The notes under the pieces were generated by a model. That model did no database searches and had not been told where the DNA came from. It saw only the letters and a program-made list of their open reading frames with translations. A stretch of DNA of 64,000 nt, from positions 159,868 through 223,867 of the forward strand of contig CAUYUJ010017813.1 in NCBI GenBank assembly GCA_963575745.1, given 5' to 3'. The position numbers were made by a program, and so were the translations under genes. Positions within the stretch are counted from its first letter, which is position 1, and the number at the start of each line of letters is the position of its first letter. This DNA comes from Prorocentrum cordatum (lineage: Eukaryota; Sar; Dinophyceae; Prorocentrales; Prorocentraceae). Shown here piece after piece: positions 3,801 to 46,588 of the stretch.

Positions 3801-3835
3801 GAGGAGGCTGTCGGGAGCCTCTTGTGGGGCTTGTC

Positions 3836-30629: not shown

Positions 30630-30634
30630 GACCA
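30630..30634. repeat. Probable target-site duplication (left), gacca
   Basis: The five bases gacca directly abut the left LTR and reappear directly outside the right LTR (46589-46593). A 5-bp duplication is usual for Ty1/copia integration. The first four bases also match the end of the primer-binding site, so the left boundary could be read differently. Confidence 0.6.
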
Positions 30635-30886
30635 AGTCGAAAGTGAGCCTGGTAGCTCAAATATGGCATATAGCCTGGCAAATTGCATCCATCGCTCTGC
30701 TGTGAAGGTACAGTATGAGGGGTGGATGAATAAGATATGATAAGATCGATGTAATGACCTTTCCAGCACATAGCGAACACTCGCGGTGTCCGGGCAAATA
30801 GGGCGCGCGTGCCTTGGGCCAAAGGCAACGGCGCGCGAACTATGCTCCCGATACTGTAACATCTCCCAAAGAGCTACCCTTAAAGT
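30635..30886 (-). repeat. 3' LTR
   Basis: 252 bp, differing from the 5' LTR at four positions: t/g and c/t in the gataagat…atga(c/t)cttt part, a/g in gcgcga(a/g)cta, and the last base t/c. It does not begin TG and end CA. On the element's sense strand the tract just upstream of it is pyrimidine-rich (ctcctcccctccc) instead of a purine polypurine tract, which is unusual. Confidence 0.85.
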
Positions 30887-31256
30887 CGGGAGGGGAGGAG
30901 ACGGATAGCATAGTCGCACGCAAAGATCGCGCGCACGACTGTTTGCAAAGAAAAGAAAACAGTGCGTACAGTCTGGTCAAACACCAGACTGTAAGGCGAG
31001 TTTCCTCGCAAAGTATTTCACGCAAATACAGGACAGTCCCTTCAAACAATGAAGGGCTATCGGCTCAGTTAGAGGCAAGCCAAAATTAGGCCATACCTCA
31101 CCAAGCAAATGTGTATTAAGGCAAAGAGCCTGAGTTGTACGAAGCCGGCTCGTTGCCAGGCGTGAAATATAAGGCTCGTTTCCGAGCAGCTAAAGGGGCG
31201 CCTTTATAGTAGGCGCCCGTGCTGGCAAACTGGACCGCGAGGGCAACAAGGACAGA
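30887..31256 (-). other. 3' untranslated part of the retrotransposon with hairpins
   Basis: Lies between the RNase H stop and the 3' LTR. It contains an 11-bp perfect stem with a 5-nt loop (30967-30993, tacagtctggt…accagactgta) and an 8-bp stem with a 7-nt loop (31196-31218, gggcgcct…aggcgccc). It also holds two perfect GNRA-type hairpins (30996-31009 and 31174-31187) and one imperfect one (31148-31161). No coding sequence was found. Confidence 0.75.
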
Positions 31257-32830
31257 CTAAAATTGATTAGACTTAGGTTTGTCTCTGTCCTCGGGACCCC
31301 GAAAGGGAACAAATTGCTTCACGTCATACTTAAATGACTGAGTGCCTGACATCACTTCCAGAAGCAGCTCCCGATCGATGCTTCCCTTTGTATGCCCATC
31401 TGCGGTCATATCCCTAGTATCACACCATTGCACGTTATGTACTATACCTATATCCATGAGCTCACGTATCCAGCTGATATGTCCAAGCAGAGTCCGTTCT
31501 GTAGGTATTTTGAGATCCCTGCTTGATAAAGATTTGTAGACGGACTCGGCGTCTATGGTAAGAGAGACTTTGATAGCAAGGCCTCCAACTTCACGCATGT
31601 CTCGTAGTTGTCGTGGAGTCAAAGCCCCTGCCTTAAGCTCGTGGAGAGTAATGAGCGTAGGGTAACACTCATCAAGGTTATGTGCGGCTGCAAGTGCCTC
31701 CGCAGCATAACTGGACCTCACCTGTAATCGGTGTGATTTGCATAGTCCGTCACAGAGGTGGACGACGGACTTGCCTTGGGGCGAGTTTCCTCGCCGTAGT
31801 ACGTTGGCCCCGCGTATGCCGTAGCCCTTGGTCTCGTCATCCTCCTCCCCAGTAAGCTTCCGATACCCCGAATCGCTATGGATGTCAACTTCATTCGTCG
31901 GCTTCATCCGAGGGAAGGTAATACGTTTCGGACTGCTGATCAGCTTTCGCGTCGCAGCATTCAAACGTCTGACTTGCAAATTGGTGGGCTCTCGAATTTT
32001 CTGAAGAGAGACCACATATACCATAAGCCAGGATTGGGTAAGAAGGGCATAGGCGAGGGCTCCTCGCAGGCTGACGAACATGTCGGTAATGAGTTTCGTG
32101 GCTTTGGCGTCGGCCGCCGCTCCTGTAAGTTCTAGGTGTGTGATAGGACGTAGTTGTTTAATATACTCGTCCTGGTCCATGATCACATCTCCCTGATCAT
32201 TCTTAGTGTAGCGAACGGCGCAGTTCGTATATGTGTGCTTGTTGAGCTTGCATTTGCCAAATACCTTTTCGACACGTTGTACATAGTCGTCTATATTTTT
32301 CTCTAGACCTGTCATGTTAATATCATCGACATGTTTTGCCGTCAGAAGGTCTTGGCTGAATTCAAATTCAGGATCGTAGCTGGTCGGTGTAAGTCCTATA
32401 GCTCGTGTGGTCGTACGAAGTTTGAGAGAGAACGCTCTTGGAGCGTCCTTAGTACCCGTTCCTGGTTTGAGGCATCTAAGACAGTGTAGACTTTCGTCGT
32501 AGGATGAGAAGCCAGGCAAGGTACGAAGTACCTGAGCGCTTCCTGGTGGAAGAGTAAAGCAAACCATGCGAGTTTCCTCGCCGGTGGCATGGGCAAGTTC
32601 CTCATAGGTCAAACCTTATAGGAACGCCTTATCGATATCCATGGATGCTAAGATCCACTCTGGATGACATGCCGCTTCACTTGCCAGGAGTCGTTGGGAC
32701 TGCCTTCGGGCGGTTCCCGAGAATGTTTCCACATCAAAAGCCTCAGTATCCATAAATCCGCGAAGGGCCAGTCTGAGACGAATGGTTTTGACGTTCTCGG
32801 TGCCCATCTTTACGAACTTCGGATGTCATG
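31257..32830 (-). pseudogene. Reverse transcriptase and RNase H portion, interrupted
   Basis: C-terminal part of pol in a frame different from the preceding one; the frameshift is near 32825. The RT begins around KMGTENVKTIRLRLALRGFM. Motif A is MDIDKAFL, followed at once by TAA (32616-32618) where family members would have a sense codon, then GLTYEEL in the same frame. Motif B is GTGTKDAPRAF, and motif C is HVDD in place of the usual YVDD (near 32325). RNase H residues are visible: DIHSDSG, SSYAAEALAAAH, IDAESVYKSL and DMTADGHTKG. The frame ends normally at 31257. Apart from the frameshift and the stop, the domain looks complete. It would copy the element's RNA into DNA within virus-like particles. 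As written it cannot be translated in one piece, unless by recoding. Confidence 0.88.
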
Positions 32831-35800
32831 ATGTCGATGTTGGAAGCTTTGGATAAATCGTACACCTCAAAGCATCGGTTATCAATCCAGATTTTGAGCT
32901 CAGTATATAAGGCTTCACTAACCTCCTTTGGATGTGCTGCTATGTCGGCTTTGGTCAGTAGATCATCTTCTTTGACAACCACAGCACGTTTAGCAGCAGA
33001 GGATACATATACTCTCATCGTTGCGACCATATCGGTATCGAGCTGTGCAAGTTGAGTCTGATCCAACACTATTTTTGACATTTCTGATGTAAAGCATAGT
33101 TCAACGTAAGGACCGTATTCATCACTGTCTAGAAAGTAGCTCTCGTCAGTTGTGTTTGAACAAAGCGATACTGGACAGGACTCACATGATTTCGGCTCGT
33201 CTCCGAGCATATCTGATGATGTAATATCATCTTCGTCCACAAATGCTGAAACCAAAACACATTGGTCGGGCAGCATAGTTGTTGGGACGCAATAGAGATA
33301 ATCATCGGTAATCGTCGTAGGATGAAGGTCCATACGTAGCTCGCCGTACCACTCTTCCAGCATCATAGCTTCAATATTGTGTTCCTCATTTTCCTCATAG
33401 ATTGTCGACAGACGGCCTTCGCTCGGCGATGAAGCATCTGGTGTGTCTGGAGAAGGCCTGTTTCCAGGCGACTCGTGTTCTCCAGACGTGTTGCTTGGAT
33501 GCTGATATTTAGCCAAATCGTCGTGGAATCCTAAGGAAGGGACACGTGAAGTCAAGCATTGAATAAGTCTGGAGTGAGTGCTACCAGTGATCTGAGAAAT
33601 GTTTAAGCCAGTGCCCACACATTCGTAATAGTGGAACGCCGGGCTGATGTCGTTGTCATAGTGGATCAGCGTAGACCCGGTGGCGTACTTTACTGCAGGT
33701 AGGCTTGACACACTCTTAGCCAATCGAACTGCTACTACATGTTCTACTCGGAAGTAATTTCGTACGAGATACTGTAGTGCTAAGTGTACGCGCGGGTGAA
33801 ACTTGCTGTCGTCTGACAGATTAAGGTTTCCCTTGTAATCGGGAATGTACCCGAAAACTTTGGCAGGTTTCCCTGCGCTGAGGTGTGCCACATAAGCAAG
33901 GACGGTTTGCATAGCCATATTATCCATGCCAAGTTCCCGTGTGAGGAGACATTCGATGTACAGTGTGTGACGAGCATCAGGATACATCGCAATTGCCTCA
34001 CGAGATCCTGCCTTGACAACAATATGTCCTCTCTCAGGCACATTTCGGATCACCGGGAATGGGCCGTTCCAGCCTCCATGGCCGTCCTTGGTGGCAGTAG
34101 GTCGGTGGTAGTCGACCAAATCCCCTGATGAGTAGAGGCGAGCACCATCAGGAGTCGTCTTAGCCCTAAGAGCCCGATTTGTCTTGGCCACAGCAGTAGC
34201 CTGAGTTATAGCTTCTAGGCTGACTTCCCTTACACGACGTTCTCGTTCGTGTCCTGAAGTCTCGGGTCCCTTGGGAAAGTCAAGGGCATCGAGATCAGGA
34301 AGGAAGGAGGGCTGACGTCCTGTGTGTGCCTGATATGGCGATACTCCGTTATAAAACGTAAACGCAGTAGTAACGAAGATGCCTTCCGCCAATACTCTAG
34401 TGAATACAACAGGGATGTTGTGTCTATTCAATTCTTCCTCAATCATGTGGAGGACGCCTCTGAGAATGCCGTTTCGTGACTCAATTGAAGTCGCGCGTTG
34501 GCCAGGTGCTCGGATACGAAGTTCCGTGCCCTTATTGGCCATCATGGTTTTAGCGGCATCGTTATTCAGGGCGCCTTCTCCGTCTGAGTATAAAACTTTG
34601 AAGGGTCCGCGATAGGCAATCCAGCAATAGTGGTAGGCGTCGATGATAGCGTCACGTTCTCTGTCGGAAATTTCTAGGCCTGCTGCCAGGCGAATACAAC
34701 GATCCATAATATGAAATATGGTCCGTTTCTTGTAAAACATGAGGCCCATTTCCCCTTCATCGAGCCAGTTACCAGGAAGGCTCACCGATGGTAGTGTTGA
34801 GTTTCCTGGACGTTCCCATGCTCTACATTCCCGACAGGTATCACAGACTTCCTTGATCATGTTCAGTCGAACGTTATCAAGCCCCACCTTTTCGAGGATT
34901 AGCCTCATCTTTGGCTCCTTCGCATGATGCCATCGCAGATGCAGTTTTCGGAGTTCCTTTTTCACGACATGAGGTTCGTGACTACGGAGACTCTGTAGAC
35001 TGTGTTGGATGTCGAATCTCGTCCAGTCGGGTAGTCGTGGAGCCCCAGAGCCGGTGGAGGCAAGAGGGTTCCTTGTAGCTCTCCGTAGTTGGTCCCCTGT
35101 GTTAACTGCGTCTGGAGGTGGTGGTACGCCTTGTAGACGGCCGCGGCGGGCCGCTACCTGTGGCACTTCGCTAGAAGACGCAGAAGGCGTGTTTCCACGC
35201 TCGGGGGCGTCTCGTAGCATGTCGTAGCTGCTGGCACCGGATGTCGGATCGACGTTGCCGAAGGATCGTGGTCGTGGTGGCCTGGCATGTGCGCCTTGAC
35301 GGCCACCTGAAGCTGAAGCTTGGCCCTCACCAGGTTTAGGTAAGGGTTTCCACCAAGCTGGCACAGTTTTGCCTTCGGGGTCGCGGTCGTCTGGTAGTTT
35401 AAATGGTTCAGCAAAACGACATTTACCAGGTTCGGTATCGAGGTGGTTCTTAACACCCTTGCTTCTCGTAAGATCCCTCTGACATGCTGGACATGGCCAA
35501 TATACAGAGATGGAATCATGATATTTACACTGCGTAGGGTCTCTGTTATGGCTCGGACTGTCCTTTCGGACATTGTCGATGCATGCCGGGCAAGTAGCCA
35601 CCTTTGGGATGATACGATCACCGATGCGTCTCATACCTTCGCCTGGTTCAGCTTGATCGGGAAGGTCTGTAGGATAAGCATGTGCGGTACTTATAGGCGC
35701 GTTTCCGCGCGTGGTGTCAATGGCTTTCGCCAGATATACAGCTTCCACGAAGGCAGACTGCAGTCGTCGGGTGTATTTTTGTGCCAGTGAAAGCTCGATA

Positions 35801-37749
35801 TTGCACGGTTGTGCGTGCACATGCTGACCGTTACACTGGAGTCGCTCAAAGGGTTTAAGAATTGTCTCGTCGTTGCTGGTGATATTTGTCGGCTTCTTAA
35901 TATAGTCACCAGTCGTGTCTTTAAGTCCCGTAGCGCATTGGTCAATGCGTACGGTTGTAATGTGTGGTCGGTTGGCAAGCTTCTTCCATGGAGAAATATC
36001 ATCTACCCATGTTCCTGTAGGTTGTTCGCGTATAAACCACCTCTGAGAGTCATCTTGGGTTACAGCAATTTTACCACAATAAGTTATGTGTGGTAAGTCT
36101 TCTTTATGGTGCTGTTCCCAAGTGTTGTAGTTGACTTTGTAGTTGTAGTAGGATGGTGGTCCTGTGGTGCGACAGCTGGGTTGCAGTATGGCAACTCGTA
36201 CGTAGCATATAGCAAAGTAATGGTCTATAACCTGCTGCACCGAGGGGTCTCCCAGGTCGACATATGTAGTCTTGTCCAAGTTGCCGCCTGAGGAAAGTCC
36301 CCTTGAGAAGGCAAGCTCTGAGATGCCACCCTCACCGCCACAAAGCTCCAACATATCCACGCAGTTGTTATGGCCATAGCATAGTGTAGCAACTATGCTG
36401 TATATGTTAGCGTGTGTGTCGGGCATAGATGTGGGGAGGGTAAGGAACAGGTCATCGTCCTCGTCGGAGCTTATCAGCTCAACAGGGACGTCAGTACTCC
36501 AGGTTGCCATAAGATCCTGTCCGAGTCCTGACAAGTCGTCGCCGCAATCGTCGTTTCCGTCTTCAACGTGCTTTTTAATGCGGCGAGGCTTGATGCCTGC
36601 TTCCTTTTCGGCTTTGAGCCTCTCCTTCTGTTTTATACGCGATTCAGTGGGTAAAGCTTGCTCGTCTTGTTCGTCGGTCTGTGTACTCATTGTCGCGGTT
36701 GAATGGGTACATGCGTCAATCGCCAGAGTCGGGAGGGGGAGAGAACAGTCATCTATGATGACGCGTCGATGTTTCTGTGGTGATTGAGTCGGCTCGTTTC
36801 CGAGCAAGACCGGTTCCTCGGGTTGCCAATACAACCGAGTACTGATGTTGGCAACCCCTGCAGGTAATGGTGCATGCCAATCATATCCTGTTGGTTGATC
36901 GGTAACTGAGATATCCTGAATAACCGCATTGGTATCCAGGTTGATTGTTACACGTCGGATGACTTCAGACCATTTTGGTCCTCCCTTATTAGTCGTCACG
37001 TAGTGACGGATGTTATGGTCTGTACGTGTATACGTATTTAAGTATACGGGCACGTTTCCGTGCGTGGTGGTGCTCCCCAGGATGTTGTCGTTCAAGTGAC
37101 GGATGAGTGTAGTACGTGTCTGAGCTCGCCATTCAGCATGCCGTACTGTATGGCCGTACCAATCCAACACATGTTGTGGTATTGCCTGCTTACAGGTACA
37201 TGCCCACAGCTTCGAGCTAATCGGTATTGATGATGCTACCTGCATATAAGTACCGCTTGGTGTACTGTCTTGCATATTGAACCGAATACCGAAATGACAC
37301 AAACGCATCCGTATTACTGACAACTTTAGATCTTCCAGAGTATCACGTACTGGAGATAACTTCCAAACATATCCTGGGGGACCAAATATTATGATCTTCA
37401 TGCGGAGTTTCTTGGCTTTTATCAATAGGTTCTGGATACGTGACCAATGTGGGGCCACTCTCTTTCCTGGAGTTCTTACGTACCAGTCACCCGGAGTACT
37501 GATCCATATGAGAGTGTAATCTCCACTGATCACCGCACCTAGGTAGTTTGTGCCCACGCTTGTCATAAGTTCGTTGTGGGAAATACGATCACAAATATAA
37601 CCTCGTGTGCGGAGGTCGGCACATGCCTCCCTCGTATCTTCAATGACAAAAGCCCTCTTACTAAGGCAGGTTACCCCGCTGTCCTTGTTACCCCCCGGCT
37701 TTTCAGCCAACAGGCAAGACGACGAGGGGGCGACGTCGCCCTGCCATCT
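32743..37749 (-). CDS. Pol part 1: methyltransferase-like domain, zinc finger, integrase
   Basis: The frame is continuous with gag-pro after the UGA at 37750-37752, so no independent ATG is implied. Residues are counted from the TTG at 37710. N-terminal ~1-200 includes MKIIIFGPPGYVWKL. About 451-640 is a Rossmann methyltransferase-like block: VDMLELCGGEGGISELAF (motif I), TYVDLGD (acidic strand-2 residue) and AILQPSCRTTG (motif-IV-like, Cys 513), then YCGKIAVTQDD and FIREQPTGTWVDD. About 705-760 is Cys/His-rich (CPAC, CKYH, CPACQRDL…H…C). Integrase follows: LHLRWHHAKE and CDTCRECRAW (HHCC zinc region), then Gly 989 where the first catalytic Asp is expected (EMGLMFY), Asp 1043 (YSDGEGAL) and Glu 1077 (SIESRNG). 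A GWNGPFPVI segment follows the catalytic core. Downstream is an acidic linker. The frame runs out at 32743 after the RT frameshift. Confidence 0.85.
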   Translation of the reverse strand, partial: RWQGDVAPSSSCLLAEKPGGNKDSGVTCLSKRAFVIEDTREACADLRTRGYICDRISHNELMTSVGTNYLGAVISGDYTLIWISTPGDWYVRTPGKRVAPHWSRIQNLLIKAKKLRMKIIIFGPPGYVWKLSPVRDTLEDLKLSVIRMRLCHFGIRFNMQDSTPSGTYMQVASSIPISSKLWACTCKQAIPQHVLDWYGHTVRHAEWRAQTRTTLIRHLNDNILGSTTTHGNVPVYLNTYTRTDHNIRHYVTTNKGGPKWSEVIRRVTINLDTNAVIQDISVTDQPTGYDWHAPLPAGVANISTRLYWQPEEPVLLGNEPTQSPQKHRRVIIDDCSLPLPTLAIDACTHSTATMSTQTDEQDEQALPTESRIKQKERLKAEKEAGIKPRRIKKHVEDGNDDCGDDLSGLGQDLMATWSTDVPVELISSDEDDDLFLTLPTSMPDTHANIYSIVATLCYGHNNCVDMLELCGGEGGISELAFSRGLSSGGNLDKTTYVDLGDPSVQQVIDHYFAICYVRVAILQPSCRTTGPPSYYNYKVNYNTWEQHHKEDLPHITYCGKIAVTQDDSQRWFIREQPTGTWVDDISPWKKLANRPHITTVRIDQCATGLKDTTGDYIKKPTNITSNDETILKPFERLQCNGQHVHAQPCNIELSLAQKYTRRLQSAFVEAVYLAKAIDTTRGNAPISTAHAYPTDLPDQAEPGEGMRRIGDRIIPKVATCPACIDNVRKDSPSHNRDPTQCKYHDSISVYWPCPACQRDLTRSKGVKNHLDTEPGKCRFAEPFKLPDDRDPEGKTVPAWWKPLPKPGEGQASASGGRQGAHARPPRPRSFGNVDPTSGASSYDMLRDAPERGNTPSASSSEVPQVAARRGRLQGVPPPPDAVNTGDQLRRATRNPLASTGSGAPRLPDWTRFDIQHSLQSLRSHEPHVVKKELRKLHLRWHHAKEPKMRLILEKVGLDNVRLNMIKEVCDTCRECRAWERPGNSTLPSVSLPGNWLDEGEMGLMFYKKRTIFHIMDRCIRLAAGLEISDRERDAIIDAYHYCWIAYRGPFKVLYSDGEGALNNDAAKTMMANKGTELRIRAPGQRATSIESRNGILRGVLHMIEEELNRHNIPVVFTRVLAEGIFVTTAFTFYNGVSPYQAHTGRQPSFLPDLDALDFPKGPETSGHERERRVREVSLEAITQATAVAKTNRALRAKTTPDGARLYSSGDLVDYHRPTATKDGHGGWNGPFPVIRNVPERGHIVVKAGSREAIAMYPDARHTLYIECLLTRELGMDNMAMQTVLAYVAHLSAGKPAKVFGYIPDYKGNLNLSDDSKFHPRVHLALQYLVRNYFRVEHVVAVRLAKSVSSLPAVKYATGSTLIHYDNDISPAFHYYECVGTGLNISQITGSTHSRLIQCLTSRVPSLGFHDDLAKYQHPSNTSGEHESPGNRPSPDTPDASSPSEGRLSTIYEENEEHNIEAMMLEEWYGELRMDLHPTTITDDYLYCVPTTMLPDQCVLVSAFVDEDDITSSDMLGDEPKSCESCPVSLCSNTTDESYFLDSDEYGPYVELCFTSEMSKIVLDQTQLAQLDTDMVATMRVYVSSAAKRAVVVKEDDLLTKADIAAHPKEVSEALYTELKIWIDNRCFEVYDLSKASNIDIMTSEVRKDGHRERQNHSSQTGPSRIYGY
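34744..34746 (-). other. Integrase first catalytic position is Gly (GGC)
   Basis: The codon GGC encodes Gly 989 in EMGLMFYKK. The spacing to Asp 1043 (54) and Glu 1077 (34 more) fits the DDE triad if this residue should be Asp. GAC to GGC is one transition. An upstream Asp (984, in LDEGEMG) is an alternative first Asp but fits the hydrophobic strand pattern less well. Confidence 0.55.
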
Positions 37750-37752
37750 TCA
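37750..37752 (-). other. In-frame UGA between gag-pro and pol
   Basis: The frame on both sides is the same: …DIVGTSSS then TGA then RWQGDVAPSSS and on into pol. Readthrough of this single stop would give a Gag-Pol fusion. Alternatively it is a CGA-to-TGA mutation, a transition at a CpG site. Other copies of the family would tell which. Confidence 0.8.
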
Positions 37753-40700
37753 AGATGAAGAAGATGTGCCTACAATATCTGCCAGCATCTGGGCTTCCCT
37801 CAGATGCTGGAGCTCAGCACTGCAGCGCGCCGTGGCCTCAGAGGCGGATTGCCCCGCAAATGCTGTCAGCATCGATGGATTATCCATCAGCTGTTTCAGC
37901 ACGCCTTTGGACCTAGCGTCGCTGACCGTTTGCAATTCACGATTAGTGTATCCCATCACTATTTTACGGCGGGACTGTACAGCGTCCATGGGTACACTAC
38001 CACCATGCAGGGCCAGTGTCCTGGCAACAAAACAATCGAACGTCTCGAGATCGTCGATGTTGTCGCCTCGCATGGTAGCCTTGGCGAGCGTCTCCATCAA
38101 CCCCTGGGGCAGGTTTCCCTGCAATTGGTTGCGCTCCTGCGCTGGGGTCGGCTCGCCTGCCAGCACTGTCTGGAAGGACGTTCTGCTTGAGCTCGAGGCG
38201 GGTTGCCCCGCAGCTCCAAAACAATCACACCTGATCGACAGATGCCCTGACGGCAACTTTGTCGTCGGCATGATTTTGGAGCCTTCTGGGAGCTCCATTT
38301 TGACCTGCCCCTTACCAGGGAATATCAGCTTTTCCTGGCCTCGTTCAAGCACGATGATCGTGCGTTTGTCCTGCATACTATCGAGACCTAGGATGGCTGG
38401 CAGGTCCTTGCCACAGCCTGACACAATGTTCGTCTTGTATGAATCGAGTTGGGCCGACCCCTGGTACTCGCAGGCAATACTGAATGTGCCTACGGTATCC
38501 GCTGGGGCCGACCCTTCTCCCACTCCGTTGATATTCAAACGAGAGCGGGGCTCGAACGTACAAGTACGGCCATGTGCCTCGGCAGCCTGGACGAACTTAC
38601 GGCTCGTGTTCTCGCCCATGATGTTGATCTTCGAACCGACGTCGATGAGTATGGAATTTCCACCATCATCCAAGAACGTCTTACTCGGCTGCTTGATGTG
38701 CACAGTTTCTGAAGTGTCGGCTGTGTCGGTAGGCGGGTTTCCCCGCGGCACAGTCGTACTCCCTGGCGGGTTACCCCGCACGACACTGGCATGCGACTCG
38801 CTCTCGGCCATGCGTGCCAGGTCAATGTACTGGAAGTACGACACGTGCTGGGCGTGATCGCCACGCTCCTCCCGCCAGTTGGCATACTCATCACGTATGC
38901 TCATATACTGCTCGCGGGTCGTGCGCCTTATCAACGTTAGGTACGAGTGAAGGGCGATGTCTTGCAGCCCCTCGTTCGTGATGTGATCCCGGTACCGCAG
39001 CCACTCCTCGAACTCCTCATTCGTCGCTGAGATATTGACGGCCCTGGCTGCTGTTGCTGCTGACGCCACTGAGGATTCTGATAAGTCTAGCGACGGACTA
39101 TCAGTTTCAGGATTGTTGGCATCCAGCATAAATGTTGTGTGCGTATTATCCATCTGGTTCTGGAAATGTCGTGCACGCAATTCACGCAGCTGATCAGGGT
39201 CTAGTGACATCTCAGCCTCACCTCCACTCTGGGGAGACATCTGAGGAGTATCATGCAGGTTTCCCTGCTGAGGCGCCGTCATCGGGATAAGCTGATCAAA
39301 ATATCCCGTTTCCATAGGCGGCCTTACGTCTTCAGGCAGGTATCCCTGCTGTTGTGACGGAACTGTCTGCATAGCTAGCATCCTGGACGCCATCTCCTCC
39401 ACCATGCTCCTCAGCTCCCGCAGCTCTCTCGCTGACTGATCAGGAGTCTGACTAAAGGAGCCGGTCCATGGGAAGGATGATGCTATAATGCCAGGTGCTC
39501 GACAGATCGCACATGGTGGCTGCTGGGGATCTCCCTCACGCTGATTTGTAACGTGGCCCACCACATTAGAATTCCAGCATCCCTCGTGGAATAGGTGATT
39601 GCACCTCAGGCGGTAAACGCTATCCCTGGGCTGAAATTCTTCGAGGCATACCGCGCAGGTATCTTCCATCCCAGTAAAGACCTCTACGTCTGCTGCCCTG
39701 GGATATACCCGCCGCTGCCTCTCCAGTACCGTCTCGGAGGGCATGAAGGCTGATGGGGGTGTCCCCGTTGGATTCAGCACTTCCTGCACTTCGACATTTG
39801 GCATGGAAGTGGTAGGAGTCACGGCGGGCGAGTTTCCTCGCAAAGGTGAGCCCCTGTTCCTCACCACATCAAGTGCAGCTGCACGTGACTGATCCCGTAC
39901 GCTTTGCACCGCCTGCCTTCTCCTGAAGCATGCCTGCTGAGTGTGGTGCGTCTGCCTGATGTAGTCAGGCACGCCCCTACTGCCAGACGATATTGAATGG
40001 GCAGTGGGCTGGACAACCACCTCTGGTGATGTTGGTGAAGGCATGAAGGCCATGTGCGGGTACATGGAATGGTCACTGCAGCGCACATTAGTGAGGTTAT
40101 GCATCTGATCCGCCAATTCACGAACAAATTTGTTCGGAACCCTTGACCCATCAGGGTATAATGGCGGGTTCATCTGCGCTGGTGGTGGCCTCTGACCCCC
40201 AGACATGCTCGGATGGGCATTGAACGCCGGTATAAAGGCTCGTTGCCGAGCAGGATCCCGTGGGTTGGGACCCTCAGGCTCCCAGGACCAGGCTGGTCTC
40301 CACCTCTGCCCACTTGGGTGAGGCAGATTATGGCTCTGCACCTGCTGCACCGCGGCCGCCACTCTTGAGCGATAGTCGTCAGGTACACCCGCCCTGTGGT
40401 GGCTTGGTGTGCCAGGCAGGTTTCCCTGCTGACTCGTTGGCGTGCCGGGCGGCATCATGTTGAGGAGGGCTGTGCTGTGTTCAGCCCTAGCCGCAGCTAT
40501 CCTCTCCATGAGAGTGCCGTTTGTGGCAGGGCGGACAGGTGTCCCGAATGGGGATTGTGCCGGTGGTGTGCCCAATGGAGTCATGCCCCTTGGAGTGTGC
40601 ATGCTCTGAGTAGGGCTTCCATGCATTGGTTCAAACCGAGCAGGTCCGCTTGTAGGCAGGTTTCCCTGCATGGCCTGACGATTTCTCGTAGCCATAGCGG

Positions 40701-43700
40701 ACATTGCTCCCTGGCCTGCGGCCCAGGGATCCTGCTGGTATAACCTGTCCGCCAGCTGTTCTACCTGGTCAGGGTTCAGCGCGGCTGCGATCTGATCCAG
40801 GTCCGAGGTACTGATGGCCTGCCAAGACACGGCACTAGGCCCTTGGCTTGGGGCACGGCTTGGAGCCGCGCTCCCGGCCTCACTCTCGGTAATCATGAAG
40901 ATCCGATAGATCTCAGGCTGGTTTCCCAGCTGGGTAGGGCTGTAGTGGTCCCCAACTTCTCTGTGGAGGTAGCCCATAGGGGGGTCAACGCCCCCTTGGT
41001 CTCGGGACCACTGGTACTTAACGCTGGAAGTACCAACGTCAGCCCACCTGTCAGGAGCAGACATCGTTGCGACAGAGACTCGCGCATGGCGGCTCCCCAG
41101 ATATTCTGGATTACGCCATTGCCTTCCTGTGGTCAGGTCCTCTACATGAGAGATGTAATACGGTTCAATGATACCGTTATCTCCCTCGGACAAGAGGACT
41201 CCGTTATCGGACCAACAGAACTTCATGCCATCTTGCATGGCCTTACGCCAATCTACGAAGATGATGATGTCTGAGTCTGGGTCCCACCCACTGTTCACGG
41301 CACGGCGGCGAACTGTCGGCGCGAAGTGAATGTGCGACCGGCCTGTCCCCTTTTTCTTCGTGTTATGCTCAGGTCTACAGGACAGGCCGTGCCGCATAAT
41401 CCCTTCGAAGGCGCGCCATCGAGTGCCATGCATAGCAACATCGGGGCATGGGGCCGGTCTCCCGGCAGGTTGGTCGCACAGCACAATGTAGCTGTACAGC
41501 GACCATGGAGCTTTCAATTCCCATGAATGCCCCTGAGAGGCGCGGACGAAGATAGCGGGCTCTCCGGAGTCCCGCATCAACACCTTGAACTGTAGGCGCT
41601 GTTTTTCTTCTCCGTCTGGTTCACGGACATGAACAACTGCCATCATGATGGCTGCTAGTTGGTCAACCGAGCGCCTACATAGATGCTCGTTGATGATCTT
41701 GGCCTCGTCATATCTTGGATTATACCCAGCGTGTCTTGATTGACCTGTGTTCCACGGATAACGGTCCACGAGTTCCACTAGGTTAACCCAACCATCATGA
41801 TCATCGAAAGATTCCAAGCGCCACACAGGATTGTGTTGCTTGTCTGGCGCATGTCTGCATATCCTGCTGAGAGCTTTGCTCAGCTGTTTGAGAATATCAT
41901 TGGATGTGGGAAGGATTCCAGCTTTCCTGCATTCCTTCATGAATGTCTCATCCACCGAGCGTATCGGTGGGAGCTTCCGAAGCGCAAGTCTATCCCTGAT
42001 CACATTTGGAGTCCCACTAGTGAAGGACGTGTCACCTGGGCGGTGCAGCTGAACCACTGGCGGGTTTCCCCGCATCGGAACCTCTGTTGCTGAGGAGGCT
42101 GCGGCTCCAGAAGAGGAGGAAGCTGCGGCGGCAGCGCCTGGCGGGTTTCCCCGCGGAGATGCGCGACTGGCGCTGCCCCTGATCTTCGGCACCCAGGTAC
42201 CCCTCGACATAGCACCTTCATCGGACCTCCTGGAACGAGCCGCCACAGGCGAAGCTGGCGCAGGTGCATACCCACTGCGCTCGAAAGCTGCCGCCTTTTT
42301 CGCAATGGAGCTGCTGCGACTAGGCGGGCGTCTTCGTTCCTCCATAGGGTCCTGAGGTTGCTGCTTGGGCACAGACGCTTGTGTAGGAGTTGTGCCAATC
42401 GGCGGCCTCGGAGTTTCAGTTCGAGGCACCTCCATCTGCACGTCTGGCCCAGGGTCCTGAGGGCTCGTCTTCGGTTTCGGCACCGAGGACGGCTTAGGTG
42501 TCGGGGGTTCACTCTTGGCCTTCGAAGTTAGTGGGAGTGGGGGCCTCGTAGCCCTCTTCATGTAGATCTTACTAGAATCCTCCAACATCTTGCGAGTTGC
42601 CTCGCGAGTGCGGTCTTCTGCTGTCCGCATACGCTCCTCATCCTCCGCCACACGTTGAGCCTTTATCTCATCCTTGATTGTCGGTTCTGGTTGTTGGGAC
42701 TGGCTAGAGACGCCAGGCGAGTTTCCTCGCATACTAGGAAGACTGAAGAGCGCGTCTTTCTCTTCCTGGGTCATGGCTACCAGTCCCCTTGGAACCGGGG
42801 TAGGCTTTTCTTCTCCTTTCGGATCCAAGTGGCTCAAGATCCCGAGACGACGACTCACTTCTGCAATTTCTTCCTGTGTCATCGGGATAAGTTGCGGATG
42901 GCCCTCTTTATGAGGGGTTTTGTCCCTGTTGGGGCTCAGGCCTTCGTTGTTGCCAACGGGGCATCCTGGCCTATGGTTCTGGAACGGCTGGGAACAAGGT
43001 CCGCATGCTGCGTGGGGCCTATACTGCTTGCGCGCCGCGATAATATCTCGCAACTGAGTCCGCGCTTCTTGAATTTCAGGGCGGCGGATATTTGTTGCAA
43101 GCTGATAGCCTCCGCGAATGGCCTTGCCATCACTGTCCCTATAGGCAGGGTTGCCCTTGCCGAAGGCCGAGTGTTCCCCTTTTCGGCGTCTTGGGTCGTT
43201 GTACGGAAGTAGCTGGCCACCTCTCCTGAGAGCGTGCTCTTTTGGGCCAGCCTGCCTCCACTCACGAGGAAGTCGAGCCTGTGGATGTGGCTCTTCTCTG
43301 ACGCGCGTATGGGAACGAGATCTTCTGGTGTTCTCATCAGAGGAAGCTGCCGAAGCAGCAGGAGCGGCACCCGGTGAAGGTGCCTGAGGAGGCTCCTGTG
43401 CGATCCCAGATGGATCGTCCGATGGAGGCAGGTCTCCCTGCTGGGTGGAGCTCGGCGCAAACGGCGCTTGTGCCGATGGTGATGATGATTCAGACTCATC
43501 AGGATCGAAGTCAACCTCTTCCTCACCATTCACGTCCATCATGAGGATGGTGACGTCATCCTCATCTAACCCGCAACCATCGCCTTCTACTTCTTCTGAT
43601 GTCGAACTACCGATGATGATGGCCATTGGCGTATCTGGTACAGGCAGGTTTCCCTGCATAGCCGGCGTCTGTGCGTCGCTCGGCGGTCCCGGAGTAGGAG

Positions 43701-46371
43701 GCACTGTTGTCGGCTCAGGCTCGTTGCCGAGCACAGGCTGCCCAGCAATGTTACGCATGGCCGTATGGTTTGGCCTCATTCCCACCGCCTGGAGACCCCA
43801 TCCTGGCGGGGGAAGATCATGACCGCGCATAGCAATAGCCATTTCTAGAGCATTACGCCATCTACCACGGGAGTATATCAAGTGTCTCTGCACGTCCTGA
43901 GGACGCACGCTGTCAATGAGAGTCAGAGCTGCCAACAACAGCTCTGAGCTACCGCAAGCATCAGTATCCTGTTCTGTCATAATGTCAGCTTCGATATGTT
44001 CTTGACTCTCAGGATAACCAGTTATAAGTATCTCATGCATCCTCATGAGGGTCTGCAAAAGGGTGCGTGGTCCATATTCGCCTGGAGCAAGCGAACCAGG
44101 AGGTATGAACGGAGTATCTGGTTCGCCTGCAATGAAGGCCTGAACAGATGCCTGAGACTCCATTTCAATTAAGTCTTCAGTGGTCTGGGGATATTCTCCC
44201 ATCAGAGACGGCCTGTTGCCAGGCGGGATTTCGGGCGGAGGTTCGAGGTTCCGTTGAACCTCGGAAGGCGAAGCCTCTATAGTGGTGTCCTCGTCGTCGC
44301 TCTCGTAGGCCATGATGTTGCCTGGGTTCCCGAACATCCAGTCGTAGAAAGAAAGAGGCTGGTTTCCCAGCGTACCGTGTTCCACAGGAGTAAGCTCGTT
44401 ACTGCCCATGACGAACCGGCGGACGTACTCGAGGTAGTACGCGTACAATCCATGACCATACGCTTCGAGCTCGTCGACGATGTCCATGCCAACAACCCAA
44501 GTGAAAAATATCTGCTCCATAGCCTCAAAGTCCTGGAGGCTCAGATATTCAATGGATGGTTCACTTGAGCCAAAATGGACTTCGGTCGACCTGCCCTTTC
44601 CATTTCCCTTCACTGGACAATCTCGCACAAGATGATCGGAACTACCACATTCATGGCATTTGAGAACCTGGCCGTCTCTACCTCGCGGGTTTCCCCGCCT
44701 ACCTTTGCCTTTTCCTGAGGTCTCTCTACGGCCTTTACCACGGCCTTTTCCCCCAAAGAATATCTCATCATGTTGTTCATCTGAGAGCCTCTGGAGAAAT
44801 GCCGCGATACCTCGTCCGTTCAACCTCCGACGACCTCGCTTGCCTTTACCCTTTCCTTTAAAACTTCTACGTATCCTCCTTCTAACACGACGCACTGGTT
44901 TTCGTGTGAACCTCCTCCACCTTCGTTTAGCCTGTTGTAATAACCAGAACAAATGCTCAGCACGCTGATTGTCGTTATCCATATTCATGATATCTGACCA
45001 ATCTAAAGCTTCAACACCATCTGATGATATAGTGTCTGCATCGGTGCCGGAGTCGAAATCCTCGTCTCCCAAGTAGGTGGATACACCGTCGGTTAGGGGG
45101 TTTGATTCCCCCCACAAAGAACGGTGTGGTTGTGGTTCTCTAGAAGGAGGGCTGGTTGCCCAGCTTGGTTGTGATCGATCCCCTGCTAATAAAGCAGTGG
45201 ATTCTCCTGGGTCATCGGCCCATATGCTTGAGGGCCCGTTTCCAGGCTGGGCTTCAGTGGTCAAGGTAGTGTAGAAATTTCCACTACCAGATCCCCTTCC
45301 CCTTCCAAACACAGATCCTATGTTACCAGGAGACCGTTCGGATAGGTGGCCTATCGAACGCATCCTCTCCAGCAACTCATCATACTGTTGTTGTGTTCGG
45401 GGCATTTGGTGATTGAGTGGCTGTAAGAGTTGCATGGCTCGCTGGTTGCCGACGCCTAAGGCGCGGAATAGGATAGTGGTTAGCAGTTGGAAGTTGGGAA
45501 GGTCGAATCCCACCGATTGTGCCTCAAGTCGGGCCATTTCGAATCGGGTAAGGGTGACATCGATTCGTTCCCCGTGAGGCACGTGGAAGTCGATGAGTTG
45601 TGTGCCGGAAGTGAGCTGTCGCTCATCTTCCAGGCGTTCGAACTTCATGCTTAGGAGGAACATGATGTAGGTCACTGGGTCTGTGTGGACCCCATCGATG
45701 TCAGCACCATAGTTGATAATGTCAGGCGGTACCCTCATGGCGAGTGTCCTCGCTAGGCCACCTAGGCCGCGTTGTATTGCGGCCGCTTGGGCCTGTGGCG
45801 TCATACGTCCGCTTGTAACGTTGAGCCATGCGTTGACCTCGTAGATGTACTCACGAAAAGGTACATTACCTTGAGGGTCCCAATATGGGCCATGTGTTTG
45901 CCCATCGGTGCTGTTTTCTCCACGACGCATGTGTCCGATTGCTGCCCCCAGCGCGAACCATATAATAGCGAAAACGACTAGCCCGAGAATGTGTAACGAA
46001 GGACGGTTATGATGCGCGTTGTCGCGCTGGGGTAGCGCCTTGTCGAGTCTTCGAGGCGCTCTGTCTGGCGGGTCTCCCCGCCCCTGCTTCAAGTATTGCG
46101 CTGTTGGCTCGTTGCCGAGCGGTTGGTGGTAACGCACTGATGAAGCGTATACGGTACCAGTCTGGTCGTCTAGACGTCGTACCTCTCGTGTTGCTTCTTG
46201 CTCTTGGATAGATCCTCGTAAACGTACTGGGAGTGGTGGCGCAGGGTGGTAGGTAGTCACGAAGATCGTGCCGAAGAATATGAGGCTAAGAAGAGCAAGA
46301 GCTGACCACACGAGAGTGCGGCCAGCTCCGCTACCAAGTCGAAAGTGAGCCTGGTAGCTCAAATATGGCAT
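37750..46371 (-). CDS. Gag-protease polyprotein with Tpt1-like and RING domains
   Basis: An uninterrupted frame of about 2,870 codons from ATG 46371-46369. A further in-frame ATG lies at 46473, and the frame is open to at least TTG 46530; all three are inside the 5' LTR. Residue numbers below count from 46530. Two hydrophobic helices: TLVWSALALLSLIFFGTIFV (~71-90) and ILGLVVFAIIWFALGAAIG (~178-196). Gag-like core ~215-400 (YEVNAWLNVTSG…FQLLTTILFRALG…YDELLERM). A basic RRRIRRSFKGKGKGKR region, then a CCHC knuckle CHECGSSDHLVRDC at 625-638. A long acidic/Pro/Ser linker with many x-G-N-x-P motifs, each encoded by a hairpin. Tpt1-like domain ~1550-1800. RING-H2 ~2292-2343. Aspartic protease around LIDVGSKINIMG (Asp 2630) with a later ILGLDSM. 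No stop interrupts it, unlike pol. Confidence 0.9.
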   Translation of the reverse strand: MPYLSYQAHFRLGSGAGRTLVWSALALLSLIFFGTIFVTTYHPAPPLPVRLRGSIQEQEATREVRRLDDQTGTVYASSVRYHQPLGNEPTAQYLKQGRGDPPDRAPRRLDKALPQRDNAHHNRPSLHILGLVVFAIIWFALGAAIGHMRRGENSTDGQTHGPYWDPQGNVPFREYIYEVNAWLNVTSGRMTPQAQAAAIQRGLGGLARTLAMRVPPDIINYGADIDGVHTDPVTYIMFLLSMKFERLEDERQLTSGTQLIDFHVPHGERIDVTLTRFEMARLEAQSVGFDLPNFQLLTTILFRALGVGNQRAMQLLQPLNHQMPRTQQQYDELLERMRSIGHLSERSPGNIGSVFGRGRGSGSGNFYTTLTTEAQPGNGPSSIWADDPGESTALLAGDRSQPSWATSPPSREPQPHRSLWGESNPLTDGVSTYLGDEDFDSGTDADTISSDGVEALDWSDIMNMDNDNQRAEHLFWLLQQAKRRWRRFTRKPVRRVRRRIRRSFKGKGKGKRGRRRLNGRGIAAFLQRLSDEQHDEIFFGGKGRGKGRRETSGKGKGRRGNPRGRDGQVLKCHECGSSDHLVRDCPVKGNGKGRSTEVHFGSSEPSIEYLSLQDFEAMEQIFFTWVVGMDIVDELEAYGHGLYAYYLEYVRRFVMGSNELTPVEHGTLGNQPLSFYDWMFGNPGNIMAYESDDEDTTIEASPSEVQRNLEPPPEIPPGNRPSLMGEYPQTTEDLIEMESQASVQAFIAGEPDTPFIPPGSLAPGEYGPRTLLQTLMRMHEILITGYPESQEHIEADIMTEQDTDACGSSELLLAALTLIDSVRPQDVQRHLIYSRGRWRNALEMAIAMRGHDLPPPGWGLQAVGMRPNHTAMRNIAGQPVLGNEPEPTTVPPTPGPPSDAQTPAMQGNLPVPDTPMAIIIGSSTSEEVEGDGCGLDEDDVTILMMDVNGEEEVDFDPDESESSSPSAQAPFAPSSTQQGDLPPSDDPSGIAQEPPQAPSPGAAPAASAASSDENTRRSRSHTRVREEPHPQARLPREWRQAGPKEHALRRGGQLLPYNDPRRRKGEHSAFGKGNPAYRDSDGKAIRGGYQLATNIRRPEIQEARTQLRDIIAARKQYRPHAACGPCSQPFQNHRPGCPVGNNEGLSPNRDKTPHKEGHPQLIPMTQEEIAEVSRRLGILSHLDPKGEEKPTPVPRGLVAMTQEEKDALFSLPSMRGNSPGVSSQSQQPEPTIKDEIKAQRVAEDEERMRTAEDRTREATRKMLEDSSKIYMKRATRPPLPLTSKAKSEPPTPKPSSVPKPKTSPQDPGPDVQMEVPRTETPRPPIGTTPTQASVPKQQPQDPMEERRRPPSRSSSIAKKAAAFERSGYAPAPASPVAARSRRSDEGAMSRGTWVPKIRGSASRASPRGNPPGAAAAASSSSGAAASSATEVPMRGNPPVVQLHRPGDTSFTSGTPNVIRDRLALRKLPPIRSVDETFMKECRKAGILPTSNDILKQLSKALSRICRHAPDKQHNPVWRLESFDDHDGWVNLVELVDRYPWNTGQSRHAGYNPRYDEAKIINEHLCRRSVDQLAAIMMAVVHVREPDGEEKQRLQFKVLMRDSGEPAIFVRASQGHSWELKAPWSLYSYIVLCDQPAGRPAPCPDVAMHGTRWRAFEGIMRHGLSCRPEHNTKKKGTGRSHIHFAPTVRRRAVNSGWDPDSDIIIFVDWRKAMQDGMKFCWSDNGVLLSEGDNGIIEPYYISHVEDLTTGRQWRNPEYLGSRHARVSVATMSAPDRWADVGTSSVKYQWSRDQGGVDPPMGYLHREVGDHYSPTQLGNQPEIYRIFMITESEAGSAAPSRAPSQGPSAVSWQAISTSDLDQIAAALNPDQVEQLADRLYQQDPWAAGQGAMSAMATRNRQAMQGNLPTSGPARFEPMHGSPTQSMHTPRGMTPLGTPPAQSPFGTPVRPATNGTLMERIAAARAEHSTALLNMMPPGTPTSQQGNLPGTPSHHRAGVPDDYRSRVAAAVQQVQSHNLPHPSGQRWRPAWSWEPEGPNPRDPARQRAFIPAFNAHPSMSGGQRPPPAQMNPPLYPDGSRVPNKFVRELADQMHNLTNVRCSDHSMYPHMAFMPSPTSPEVVVQPTAHSISSGSRGVPDYIRQTHHTQQACFRRRQAVQSVRDQSRAAALDVVRNRGSPLRGNSPAVTPTTSMPNVEVQEVLNPTGTPPSAFMPSETVLERQRRVYPRAADVEVFTGMEDTCAVCLEEFQPRDSVYRLRCNHLFHEGCWNSNVVGHVTNQREGDPQQPPCAICRAPGIIASSFPWTGSFSQTPDQSARELRELRSMVEEMASRMLAMQTVPSQQQGYLPEDVRPPMETGYFDQLIPMTAPQQGNLHDTPQMSPQSGGEAEMSLDPDQLRELRARHFQNQMDNTHTTFMLDANNPETDSPSLDLSESSVASAATAARAVNISATNEEFEEWLRYRDHITNEGLQDIALHSYLTLIRRTTREQYMSIRDEYANWREERGDHAQHVSYFQYIDLARMAESESHASVVRGNPPGSTTVPRGNPPTDTADTSETVHIKQPSKTFLDDGGNSILIDVGSKINIMGENTSRKFVQAAEAHGRTCTFEPRSRLNINGVGEGSAPADTVGTFSIACEYQGSAQLDSYKTNIVSGCGKDLPAILGLDSMQDKRTIIVLERGQEKLIFPGKGQVKMELPEGSKIMPTTKLPSGHLSIRCDCFGAAGQPASSSSRTSFQTVLAGEPTPAQERNQLQGNLPQGLMETLAKATMRGDNIDDLETFDCFVARTLALHGGSVPMDAVQSRRKIVMGYTNRELQTVSDARSKGVLKQLMDNPSMLTAFAGQSASEATARCSAELQHLREAQMLADIVGTSSSS
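38300..38690 (-). other. Aspartic protease domain (DVGS active site)
   Basis: SILIDVGSKINIMG carries the presumed catalytic Asp 2630 (codon 38641-38643). Retropepsins usually read D-T/S-G; here it is D-V-G-S. The hydrophobic ILGLDSM downstream matches the conserved strand before the family's end. It would cut the polyprotein during particle maturation. The Val replacement may be typical of this family, so activity is uncertain. Confidence 0.75.
39500..39657 (-). other. RING-H2 finger domain
   Basis: Cys/His order is CAVC…C-N-H-L-F-H-E-G-C…CAIC, i.e. C-x2-C, C, H, H, C, C-x2-C, starting at residue ~2292. This is the RING-H2 layout of E3 ubiquitin ligases, with a longer than usual spacer (NSNVVGHVTNQREGDPQQPP) before the last Cys pair. 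All eight metal ligands are present. It suggests that the polyprotein, or a product cut from it, recruits an E2 enzyme. Confidence 0.85.
41125..41900 (-). other. Tpt1/KptA-like RNA 2'-phosphotransferase domain
   Basis: Motifs occur in Tpt1/KptA order: LSKALSRICRHA (Arg 1559, His 1560), DGWVNLVELVDRYP, IFVRASQGHSW (Arg of the RAxQGHS block), MHGTRWRAFEGIMRHGLSCR, GRSHIHFAP (Arg before HIH), IIIFVDWRKAMQDGMKF and NGVLLSEGDNGIIEPYYI. The four residues essential in the yeast enzyme (Arg, His, Arg, Arg) all have counterparts. Tpt1 uses NAD+ to remove an internal 2'-phosphate left by RNA ligation. A domain-sized insertion (…GYNPRYDEAKIINEHLCRRS…) makes it somewhat longer than standalone enzymes. 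It sits between Gag and protease in one uninterrupted frame, so it is part of the particle polyprotein and not a passenger gene. Confidence 0.85.
44564..44586 (-). other. Spliced-leader relic inside gag
   Basis: The sense strand reads accgaagt followed by CCATTTTGGCTCAAG (44578-44564). The last 15 bases are identical to the 3' end of the conserved 22-nt dinoflagellate spliced leader. The preceding bases match its 5' part with one substitution and one inserted T. It is translated in frame as TEVHFGSS, about 30 codons after the zinc knuckle. Confidence 0.8.
44618..44658 (-). other. CCHC zinc knuckle
   Basis: CHECGSSDHLVRDC (residues 625-638), a C-x2-C-x4-H-x4-C retroviral-type nucleocapsid knuckle, followed by basic KGNGKGR. 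Confidence 0.93.
46321..46336 (-). promoter_or_regulatory. Primer-binding site
   Basis: The sense strand directly after the 5' LTR reads TGGTAGCGGAGCTGGC. TGG pairs with a tRNA CCA end. The following TA implies A73 and U72, the A1:U72 pair typical of eukaryotic initiator Met tRNA, the primer used by Ty1. It lies within the gag reading frame. Confidence 0.7.
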
Positions 46372-46588
46372 ATAGCCTGGCAAATTGCATCCATCGCTCT
46401 GCTGTGAAGGTACAGTATGAGGGGTGGATGAATAAGATAGGATAAGATCGATGTAATGATCTTTCCAGCACATAGCGAACACTCGCGGTGTCCGGGCAAA
46501 TAGGGCGCGCGTGCCTTGGGCCAAAGGCAACGGCGCGCGAGCTATGCTCCCGATACTGTAACATCTCCCAAAGAGCTACCCTTAAAGC
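46337..46588 (-). repeat. 5' LTR, containing the gag start codon
   Basis: 252 bp, partner of 30635-30886 (4 differences). In-frame ATGs at 46473 and 46371 start the Gag frame inside the LTR, the arrangement known from Ty1. No promoter motif is claimed. Confidence 0.85.

Follow-up and report, generated by a model that had tools for sequence, protein, structure and literature searches.

Sense-strand hairpins with GNNA loops along two Copia-type retrotransposon families of Prorocentrum cordatum

Main finding

The window considered here is a 64,000-nt stretch of Prorocentrum cordatum DNA, to which all coordinates refer. It contains an LTR retrotransposon of the Copia type, about 16 kb long (30631-46587, minus strand), and between 30996 and 46120 this element carries 35 perfect 14-nt hairpins of the form GC-xy-G-GNRA-C-y'x'-GC, all of them on the sense (minus) strand. 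A sequence-only reading of the window had offered selection on RNA structure as one of two explanations, and we find this explanation strongly supported, with synonymous stem sites nearly frozen among copies of the element, stem changes that come in pairs, and the same stem frame in a second family (family B; the element of the window belongs to family A). Because synonymous shuffles, fourfold-degenerate sites, paired switches and the second family all bear on it, selection acting on the sense-strand RNA of the element is, as far as sequence can tell, close to certain.

Architecture of the element

The features of the element are collected in Table 1. Marks of the Ty1/copia group are present, among them two flanking LTRs and a Copia-type capsid; the solved structures closest to the Gag capsid domain are the Copia, PNMA2 and Ty3 capsids. 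The primer-binding-site-like stretch TGGTAGCGGAGCTGG is presumably a match to initiator tRNA-Met. The CCHC knuckle is a weak profile match in family B as well (PF00098, E 0.0084). Within the Tpt1 domain the stretches QGHS, HGT and HIHFA align with two solved tRNA 2'-phosphotransferases. In the window pol is interrupted, a 1655-aa ORF being followed by one of 451 aa in another frame, and the family A copy L051 has a single pol ORF of 2154 aa with RVT_2. The RVT_2-type reverse transcriptase (RT; PF07727) is matched at E 7.5e-9 in L051 and 2.4e-10 in the family B copy L048; the 451-aa ORF of the window gives no Pfam match, yet aligns with proteins that bear PF07727. No Pfam integrase match appears in the 1655-aa ORF (up to E 1) or in L051 and L048 (up to 0.01), and the integrase-like stretch in pol is a reading by eye.

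Several side observations concern the architecture. An in-frame TGA (about 37750-37755, minus strand) separates the Gag-to-protease ORF from pol. Of eight family A copies aligned here, seven (L034, L036, L038, L042, L044, L046 and L051) have a TGA at the corresponding position, a comparison of the place and not of the reading frames copy by copy, while L040 has a one-base gap immediately before it; in family B (L047, L049) an in-frame TGA within CGC TGA CGG is followed by a GC-rich stretch. The TGA shared by these copies and present in both families suggests stop-codon readthrough. The Tpt1/KptA domain follows Gag in two diverged Copia-type families (residues 1670-1901 of the ORF in L053), and the word Tpt1 is absent from the literature matches listed in a search on the subject, as far as their partial texts go. 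In both families the ORF with Tpt1 also encodes the RING finger, which occurs in 3 of 26 Gag relatives among public proteins as well. Adjoining the element are eight diverged 40-60-nt repeats around CCCTGGGTCGCAGCCC (46655-49607) and a tandem array with the 11-nt unit TTAGCTTTAGC (about 48330-48538).

Table 1. Features of the element and its hairpins (stem 5' arm and loop, sense strand)
Feature	Position	Strand	Remark
3' LTR	30631..30885	-	255 nt as aligned; 3 differences from 5' LTR
5' LTR	46333..46587	-	255 nt as aligned
Primer-binding-site-like stretch	46322..46336	-	end of 5' LTR; direct reading
ORF, 2926 aa	37750..46530	-	Gag, Tpt1/KptA, RING, protease-like end (by eye); ends in in-frame TGA
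Gag capsid domain	45241..45870	-	ORF residues 221-430
CCHC zinc knuckle	44614..44661	-	after a Lys/Arg-rich stretch; PF00098 E 0.002, under curated cut-off
RNA 2'-phosphotransferase domain (Tpt1/KptA, PF01885)	41182..41889	-	profile match E 1.3e-24; activity predicted from sequence
RING finger	39499..39663	-	Pfam profile match
pol ORF, 1655 aa	32743..37710	-	frame shared with preceding ORF
ORF, 451 aa	31257..32612	-	remainder of RT and RNase H; other frame
Hairpin GCTCG-GCAA	46107..46120	-	
Hairpin GCGGG-GAGA	46068..46081	-	closing pair A-U for G-C in one copy
Hairpin GCTGG-GCAA	45151..45164	-	
Hairpin GCGGG-GAAA	44685..44698	-	over conserved GRRGNP codons of Gag
Hairpin GCTGG-GAAA	44358..44371	-	GCTCG/CGAGC in three copies
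Hairpin GCCTG-GCAA	44211..44224	-	
Hairpin GCTCG-GCAA	43719..43732	-	lost in C2, C78, C130
Hairpin GCAGG-GAAA	43644..43657	-	
Hairpin GCAGG-GAGA	43428..43441	-	
Hairpin GCGAG-GAAA	42717..42730	-	GCGGG/CCCGC in other copies
Hairpin GCGAG-GCAA	42592..42605	-	
Hairpin GCGGG-GAAA	42141..42154	-	
Hairpin GCGGG-GAAA	42060..42073	-	
Hairpin GCCGG-GAGA	41453..41466	-	within Tpt1 domain
Hairpin GCTGG-GAAA	40917..40930	-	
Hairpin GCAGG-GAAA	40656..40669	-	
Hairpin GCAGG-GAAA	40416..40429	-	
Hairpin GCTCG-GCAA	40238..40251	-	
Hairpin GCGAG-GAAA	39828..39841	-	
Hairpin GCAGG-GAAA	39255..39268	-	
Hairpin GCGGG-GTAA	38766..38779	-	
Hairpin GCGGG-GAAA	38733..38746	-	
Hairpin GCGGG-GCAA	38198..38211	-	
Hairpin GCAGG-GAAA	38109..38122	-	
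Hairpin GCACG-GAAA	37050..37063	-	
Hairpin GCTCG-GAAA	36792..36805	-	
Hairpin GCGCG-GAAA	35697..35710	-	
Hairpin GCGTG-GAAA	35187..35200	-	
Hairpin GCAGG-GAAA	33863..33876	-	family B, same place: GCGGG/CCCGC
Hairpin GCCTG-GAAA	33456..33469	-	
Hairpin GCTCG-GAGA	33195..33208	-	family B, aligned place: GCGGG-GTCA, gaps nearby
Hairpin GCGAG-GAAA	32568..32581	-	over conserved RT codons (TGEETR; relatives commonly TGEKER), no indel
Hairpin GCGAG-GAAA	31781..31794	-	family B, aligned place: GCGTG-GCCA
Hairpin GCTCG-GAAA	31174..31187	-	non-coding 3' region
Hairpin GCGAG-GAAA	30996..31009	-	non-coding 3' region
Variant GCGCG-ACAA	46014..46027	-	GCGCG-GCAA in four copies
Variant GCGAG-GACA	45740..45753	-	
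Variant GCCTG-GAAA-CGGGC	45234..45247	-	one wobble pair
Variant GCAGG-GATA	39336..39349	-	GCGGG/CCCGC in two copies
Variant GCCAG-GACA	38012..38025	-	
Variant, closing pair G-U	37844..37857	-	A-U in most copies
Variant GCGGG-GTAA-CCTGC	37666..37679	-	one wobble pair
Variant GCCTG-GCAG	34678..34691	-	

Census of the hairpins

The stems GCGGG and GCAGG occur seven times each, GCTCG and GCGAG six times each, GCTGG three times and GCCTG twice, and GCCGG, GCACG, GCGCG and GCGTG are seen once each; the loops are GAAA (23), GCAA (7), GAGA (4) and GTAA (1). The fifth stem base is G in all 35 hairpins, so that only two pairs vary, and the base next to the hairpin is C in 31 of the 35. Thirty-three hairpins lie within ORFs, starting at codon position 3 in 26 cases, at position 1 in 4 and at position 2 in 3, and two lie in the non-coding 3' region. 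Eight further places are a single change away from the class; the change lies in the loop in five of them and makes a wobble pair in three, and none is a true stem mismatch. The sequence-only reading had reported 34 hairpins on ten different stems, in gag, pol and the non-coding 3' end and in all three codon phases; the sense-strand hairpins are real, and both the ten stems and the distribution hold, although the count is 35, one of the six GCGAG hairpins having been overlooked.

The same reading had noticed no such hairpins elsewhere in the window and no GNRA loop on the opposite strand. The tight class is indeed absent from the other 48 kb on both strands, while the wider motif has two more matches there, at 54882 and 62554 on the plus strand, both with C as the fifth base; and the antisense strand of the element has no class member, although it has one GNRA hairpin with another stem. 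No class hairpin is found on the antisense strand in 14 sets of loci. When pairing is left out of the search, the pattern GCNNGGNNACNNGC has 41 matches in the window, every one in the element and on the sense strand (shuffles: mean 3.6, maximum 9), and Watson-Crick pairing is complete in 38 of the 41. Over the whole genome (a 4.13-Gb assembly of 21,875 contigs), with unpaired matches counted in, GCNGGGAAACCNGC has 15,027 places versus 843 for the reversed pattern, and GCNNGGNCACNNGC has 131,206 versus 64,850.

In a 214-nt context the mean predicted pair probability exceeds 0.5 for 30 of the 35 hairpins. They match no curated Rfam family; the single hit, with E 0.44, reaches 21.9 bits where the gathering score is 48. 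The spacing in family A is more even than random (CV 0.71, P 0.026; 0.69 and P 0.007 with the variants), and its largest gap is not unusual (P 0.10; 0.07 with the variants). An even lattice is not general, since family B has clusters and short tandem arrays.

Excess over chance and frozen stem sites

How many hairpins should be expected by chance? The earlier figure of 0.015 is too low, and the excess holds nonetheless: in 500 synonymous shuffles that keep both protein and codon usage, the ORFs have a mean of 1.2 hairpins and a maximum of 5, against the 33 observed. For hairpins with any GNNA loop the same procedure (n = 500) gives 36 versus 1.3 (maximum 6) in family A and 32 versus 0.5 (maximum 5) in family B. 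In a covariation table of the 35 hairpins (19 distinct), 100% of the cells are paired versus 76.3% after shuffling and the score is 0.580 versus 0.087, with none of 500 shuffles reaching either value; the table is partly circular because the 35 were chosen for perfect pairing, and two of its five measures are not above the shuffles (479/500 and 308/500).

Eight family A copies from the same genome (loci L031-L046, 5-22% diverged) are compared with the window; C107 can be aligned over about 10 kb only and C70 (L040) with interruptions. In these copies substitutions affect 1.0-1.4% of stem positions versus 5-36% of positions in the 10-nt flanks. At fourfold-degenerate sites, counted in seven copies with C78 left out, the four most divergent copies have changed at 0-4% of the stem sites versus 28-46% of the sites outside: C15 (L034) at 2/55 versus 740/1971, C26 at 1/54 versus 760/1992, C70 at 1/46 versus 769/1669 and C107 at 0/31 versus 364/1294. 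The remaining three are C2 (1/62 versus 224/2303), C56 (0/62 versus 373/2264) and C130 (1/63 versus 267/2185). These counts are not independent events, because the copies are related. Since the sites are fourfold degenerate, conservation of the protein cannot explain the frozen stems. Since the places were picked by intact hairpins of the window, changes on its own branch go unseen; this could about halve the neutral rate at most, and not cut it ten- to twentyfold.

The second loop base, which is fourfold degenerate in the main phase, changes more often than the stems. In C70 it has changed at 9/22 places, the rate found outside hairpins, and it is below the outside rate in C2 (2/24), C15 (2/24), C26 (4/26), C56 (2/25), C107 (1/13) and C130 (2/24); with six of seven copies changing less than outside, this base is not simply neutral.

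Compensatory change

The state of each pair was compared at 43 places in 10 copies, one of which (C8713) is a family B copy that contributes only 4 places. Where both sides of a pair have changed, five states end in a different Watson-Crick pair and a sixth in a wobble pair; where one side has changed, 12 lead to G.U and one to a Watson-Crick pair. Broken states number 19 versus the six two-sided ones. Seventeen of the 19 are confined to single copies, two of these being the family B copy at 32568, a place where family B never had the hairpin; we interpret the single-copy broken states as mostly decay after insertion. Two places were lost in one lineage, since their broken states are common to C2, C78 and C130. 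Both arms have changed within family A at 46068, 44358, 42717 and 39336, and between the families at 31781 and 33863. As the alignments read, stem change is mainly pairwise or to wobble pairs.

Two of these places were followed through the genome with patterns that leave the inner pairs free but keep the outer two, and the loop's first base, fixed. The context of 42717 is fitted by 626 places, and among the 36 matches listed the fourth pair is A-U in 28 and G-C in 8, with no intermediate, and the closing pair has changed in 2. For 33863, 855 places fit; among the 100 matches listed 98 have a perfect stem, one has a G.U and one an A.C pair (by reading), the loop has changed in two further places, and the GCAGG or GCGGG stem tracks the flank of its own family.

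A palindrome of the DNA itself, serving protein binding or recombination, could also show perfect inverted repeats, as these hairpins do. Such a palindrome is contradicted by the bias toward one strand, the class GNNA loops being on the sense strand only. The one-sided changes, with 12 G.U states versus 5 A.C states by hand count, lean in the same direction, toward folding of the sense RNA, though this is not significant alone. We give the DNA-level explanation next to no chance.

The same stem frame in a second family

Family B is represented by C2:1698.6-1714.8 kb, L053 and L048, with partial copies L047, L049 and L052. It has about 60% DNA identity with family A over pol and contains the Tpt1 (E 2e-15), RING and RVT_2 domains. 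It carries 34 hairpins on the same stem frame, all sense, 29 of them with the stem GCGGG. The loops are 26 GNCA, 6 GNRA and 2 GNTA, versus 2, 35 and 1 in family A, and the GNRA to GNCA counts (35:2 in A, 6:26 in B) differ with a Fisher p of 4e-11. A scan of family B for GNRA alone finds sense hairpins at a density of about five to six per 10 kb, and GNCA emerges when other loops are allowed. At 33195 and 31781 the two families have aligned hairpins with a different stem and loop, and at 33863 with a different stem.

The main codon phase, which holds 27 of 38 hairpins in A and 24 of 34 in B, differs between the families, so that the encoded peptides differ (X-GN-X-P in A, A-G-P/S/T-P-A in B) and the RNA frame is unchanged. 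GNCA loops of family B fall in phases 0, 1 and 2 and in non-coding sequence 21, 1, 3 and 1 times; being present in all of these, if few outside phase 0, they are not only a result of the reading frame. In the first ORF of family B, alanine is encoded by GCG at 22 of 23 codons inside hairpins versus 72 of 309 outside. The corresponding figure for glycine (GGG in 23 of 24 codons inside) is set aside as evidence because the class definition fixes the third base. In L047 and L049, pol copies with about 3% divergence, stem changes are seen at 0/100 and 0/90 positions, and at 0/16 fourfold stem sites each, too few to prove anything alone. Two other loci have a few class hairpins as well (L050 five, L054 three), all sense. 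As a separate observation, hairpins of family B form arrays in L053 at 3811-3871 and 9154-9226, with spacings of 30 nt and 24 nt.

Could the hairpins be a by-product of these peptides, repeated within flexible linkers? Most of them do sit in one phase per family and encode similar peptides. The hairpins are lost, however, on synonymous shuffling, the nearly frozen fourfold stem sites contradict a peptide origin, the stem is kept in other phases and in non-coding copies, and it is the peptide that differs between the families while the RNA stem frame stays constant. The chance that the peptides account for the hairpins seems to us very small.

Origin of the hairpins

The other explanation offered earlier was that tiny mobile palindromes insert and retain their fold. 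Between nine copies and the window, 265 hairpins are common in place, and 34 window hairpins and 6 copy hairpins are without a partner. Only two of these 40 mismatches coincide with a gap of at least 10 nt, one being part of a longer deletion in C2 and the other a 17-nt tandem duplication in C70, and a clean hairpin-sized insertion of 14 or 15 nt is found in none of the 40. The many near-identical units, the short tandem arrays in family B and the duplication in C70 are what mobile units might leave, but the hairpins shared in place and the lack of clean insertions among the 40 leave the idea unsupported, and the hairpin at 32568 lies in place over RT codons that relatives have without a gap. 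We regard mobile palindromes as very improbable.

The hairpin at 32568 most likely arose by in-place substitutions, because its RT codons are common to the relatives, there is no indel, and family B has plain codons, GGCGAGAAAGAGCGT, at that place. Excised mini-introns were considered as well and are unlikely, in that excising the RT hairpin would take away residues present in the relatives, whose alignment has no gap there. Separately, the 3' non-coding hairpin at 30996 is tandemly doubled, with a unit of 16 to 17 nt, in L034 and L040, and in the former both units are altered.

Double-hairpin elements and byps are GC-rich mobile hairpins of organelle genomes. The present hairpins resemble them in being many, short and GC-rich; unlike them, they show no clean insertion polymorphism among the copies, are sense only and are kept by selection.

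Relatives elsewhere

We turn our attention to related elements. Public genome and metagenome proteins include 94 relatives of the RT, with identities of 31-90%, and the few that are named are from EukProt Pyramimonas sp. AAC.1; one of these, P0016, has 90% identity over 59% of the query. The 2926-aa ORF as a protein query finds no relatives, and no DNA relatives are found in viral or genome contig collections with the patterns used, so that the DNA comparison is confined to one genome. Peptides that GNRA hairpins would encode in the main phase occur 23 times in the RT relatives versus 9.4 after shuffling (maximum 17), while three other peptide classes are not raised. In 26 metagenomic Gag relatives, the hairpin-encoded peptides of four classes in phases 0 and 2 show no excess, with the exception of a conserved RRGNP place in 7 of the 26; the hairpins may therefore be a feature of certain lineages only. 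Other Ty1/copia elements, from algae and protists, share a related RT and were compared as proteins; the present element stands apart through its Gag ORF, which is very long and includes Tpt1 and RING, and through its set of hairpins.

Proposed function

The next question is what reads the hairpins. We think it somewhat probable that they are cis-acting recognition sites in the genomic RNA, read by a protein of the element, most likely Gag, for recognition and packing. Since it falls to Gag to locate a 16-kb RNA and package it, Gag is the leading candidate. About 35 sites, each a 5-bp stem with a GNNA loop, would be presented along 15 kb of the sense (genomic) RNA; Gag, with its capsid domain, Lys/Arg-rich stretch and CCHC knuckle, would bind the GNNA loops at many points; and by this multi-point binding the very long RNA would be recognized as the element's own, compacted and packed into particles. 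With a loop of its own, each family could separate its RNA from that of the host and of the other family, and the family-specific loops suggest such self-recognition. The two families have similar basic regions and knuckles in Gag, and no change matching the loop difference is identified in them.

The known retroviral and Ty1 packaging regions are cis RNA structures recognized by Gag, mainly in one region near the 5' end. The sites proposed here would likewise be cis RNA structure for Gag in an LTR element, unlike those in that dozens extend over the whole RNA. The lambda-type boxB hairpin measures 15 nt, has a GNRA-like loop and binds an arginine-rich peptide of the N protein; it is alike in being a short hairpin with such a loop and differs in serving phage antitermination in one or few copies. 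Closer in number are the dispersed packaging signals known in small RNA viruses: in the RNA of satellite tobacco necrosis virus (STNV), about 30 AXXA stem-loops are bound by the coat protein and are reported to serve in finding and packing the RNA (PMC3593212). As in the published description of dispersed signals (STNV; MS2), with some 30 short stem-loops on one RNA, a constant loop motif and variable stems (PMC3593212), the element has many stem-loops whose loop motif is constant while the stems vary. The differences are that the carrier is a 16-kb LTR retrotransposon, that the sites lie in coding sequence with synonymous constraint, that the loop class goes by family, and that ours are candidate protein sites. 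The literature searched, as titles and abstract openings, contains no description of such hairpins.

A host RNA-binding protein, acting in export, stability, translation or protection from decay, could be the partner instead of Gag. GNRA and GNNA loops are common docking sites for protein and RNA, and every result for selection at the RNA level fits a host protein equally. Yet a family-specific loop is easier to understand with a partner that co-evolves with the element, and about 35 sites per RNA would be more than one export or stability signal needs, which makes a host partner rather unlikely in our view. The element's own Tpt1/KptA domain, or a cycle of RNA breakage and repair, might also use the hairpins as substrates or guides: the domain aligns with two solved tRNA 2'-phosphotransferases and is also present in the hairpin-rich family B. 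Tpt1 acts, however, on 2'-phosphates at ligation sites, with no need for GNRA hairpins known to us, and the hairpins are not spliced-out inserts, one of them consisting of conserved RT codons; we consider this use improbable.

Returning to recognition by Gag, we offer more tentatively, as something that may well prove wrong, that the hairpins form an identity code of the RNA, with one loop per family repeated about 35 times on a shared stem frame, whose loops a cognate protein reads so as to pack its own RNA and exclude that of others. It is still largely unsettled how an LTR retrotransposon picks out its own RNA when cellular RNA is in vast excess, and even for viruses the debate on multi-site packaging signals continues. 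The present sites are so short, numerous and, amid diverged sequence, tightly conserved that their motif, permitted variation and family specificity can be read from the genome alone, and they are short enough for testing in vitro with 14-nt RNAs. If the proposal is true, an identity code overlies the coding sequence of the element and forces its codons; this would be a case of an RNA code overriding codon choice, even where a conserved RT motif is encoded (TGEETR here and TGEKER in most relatives).
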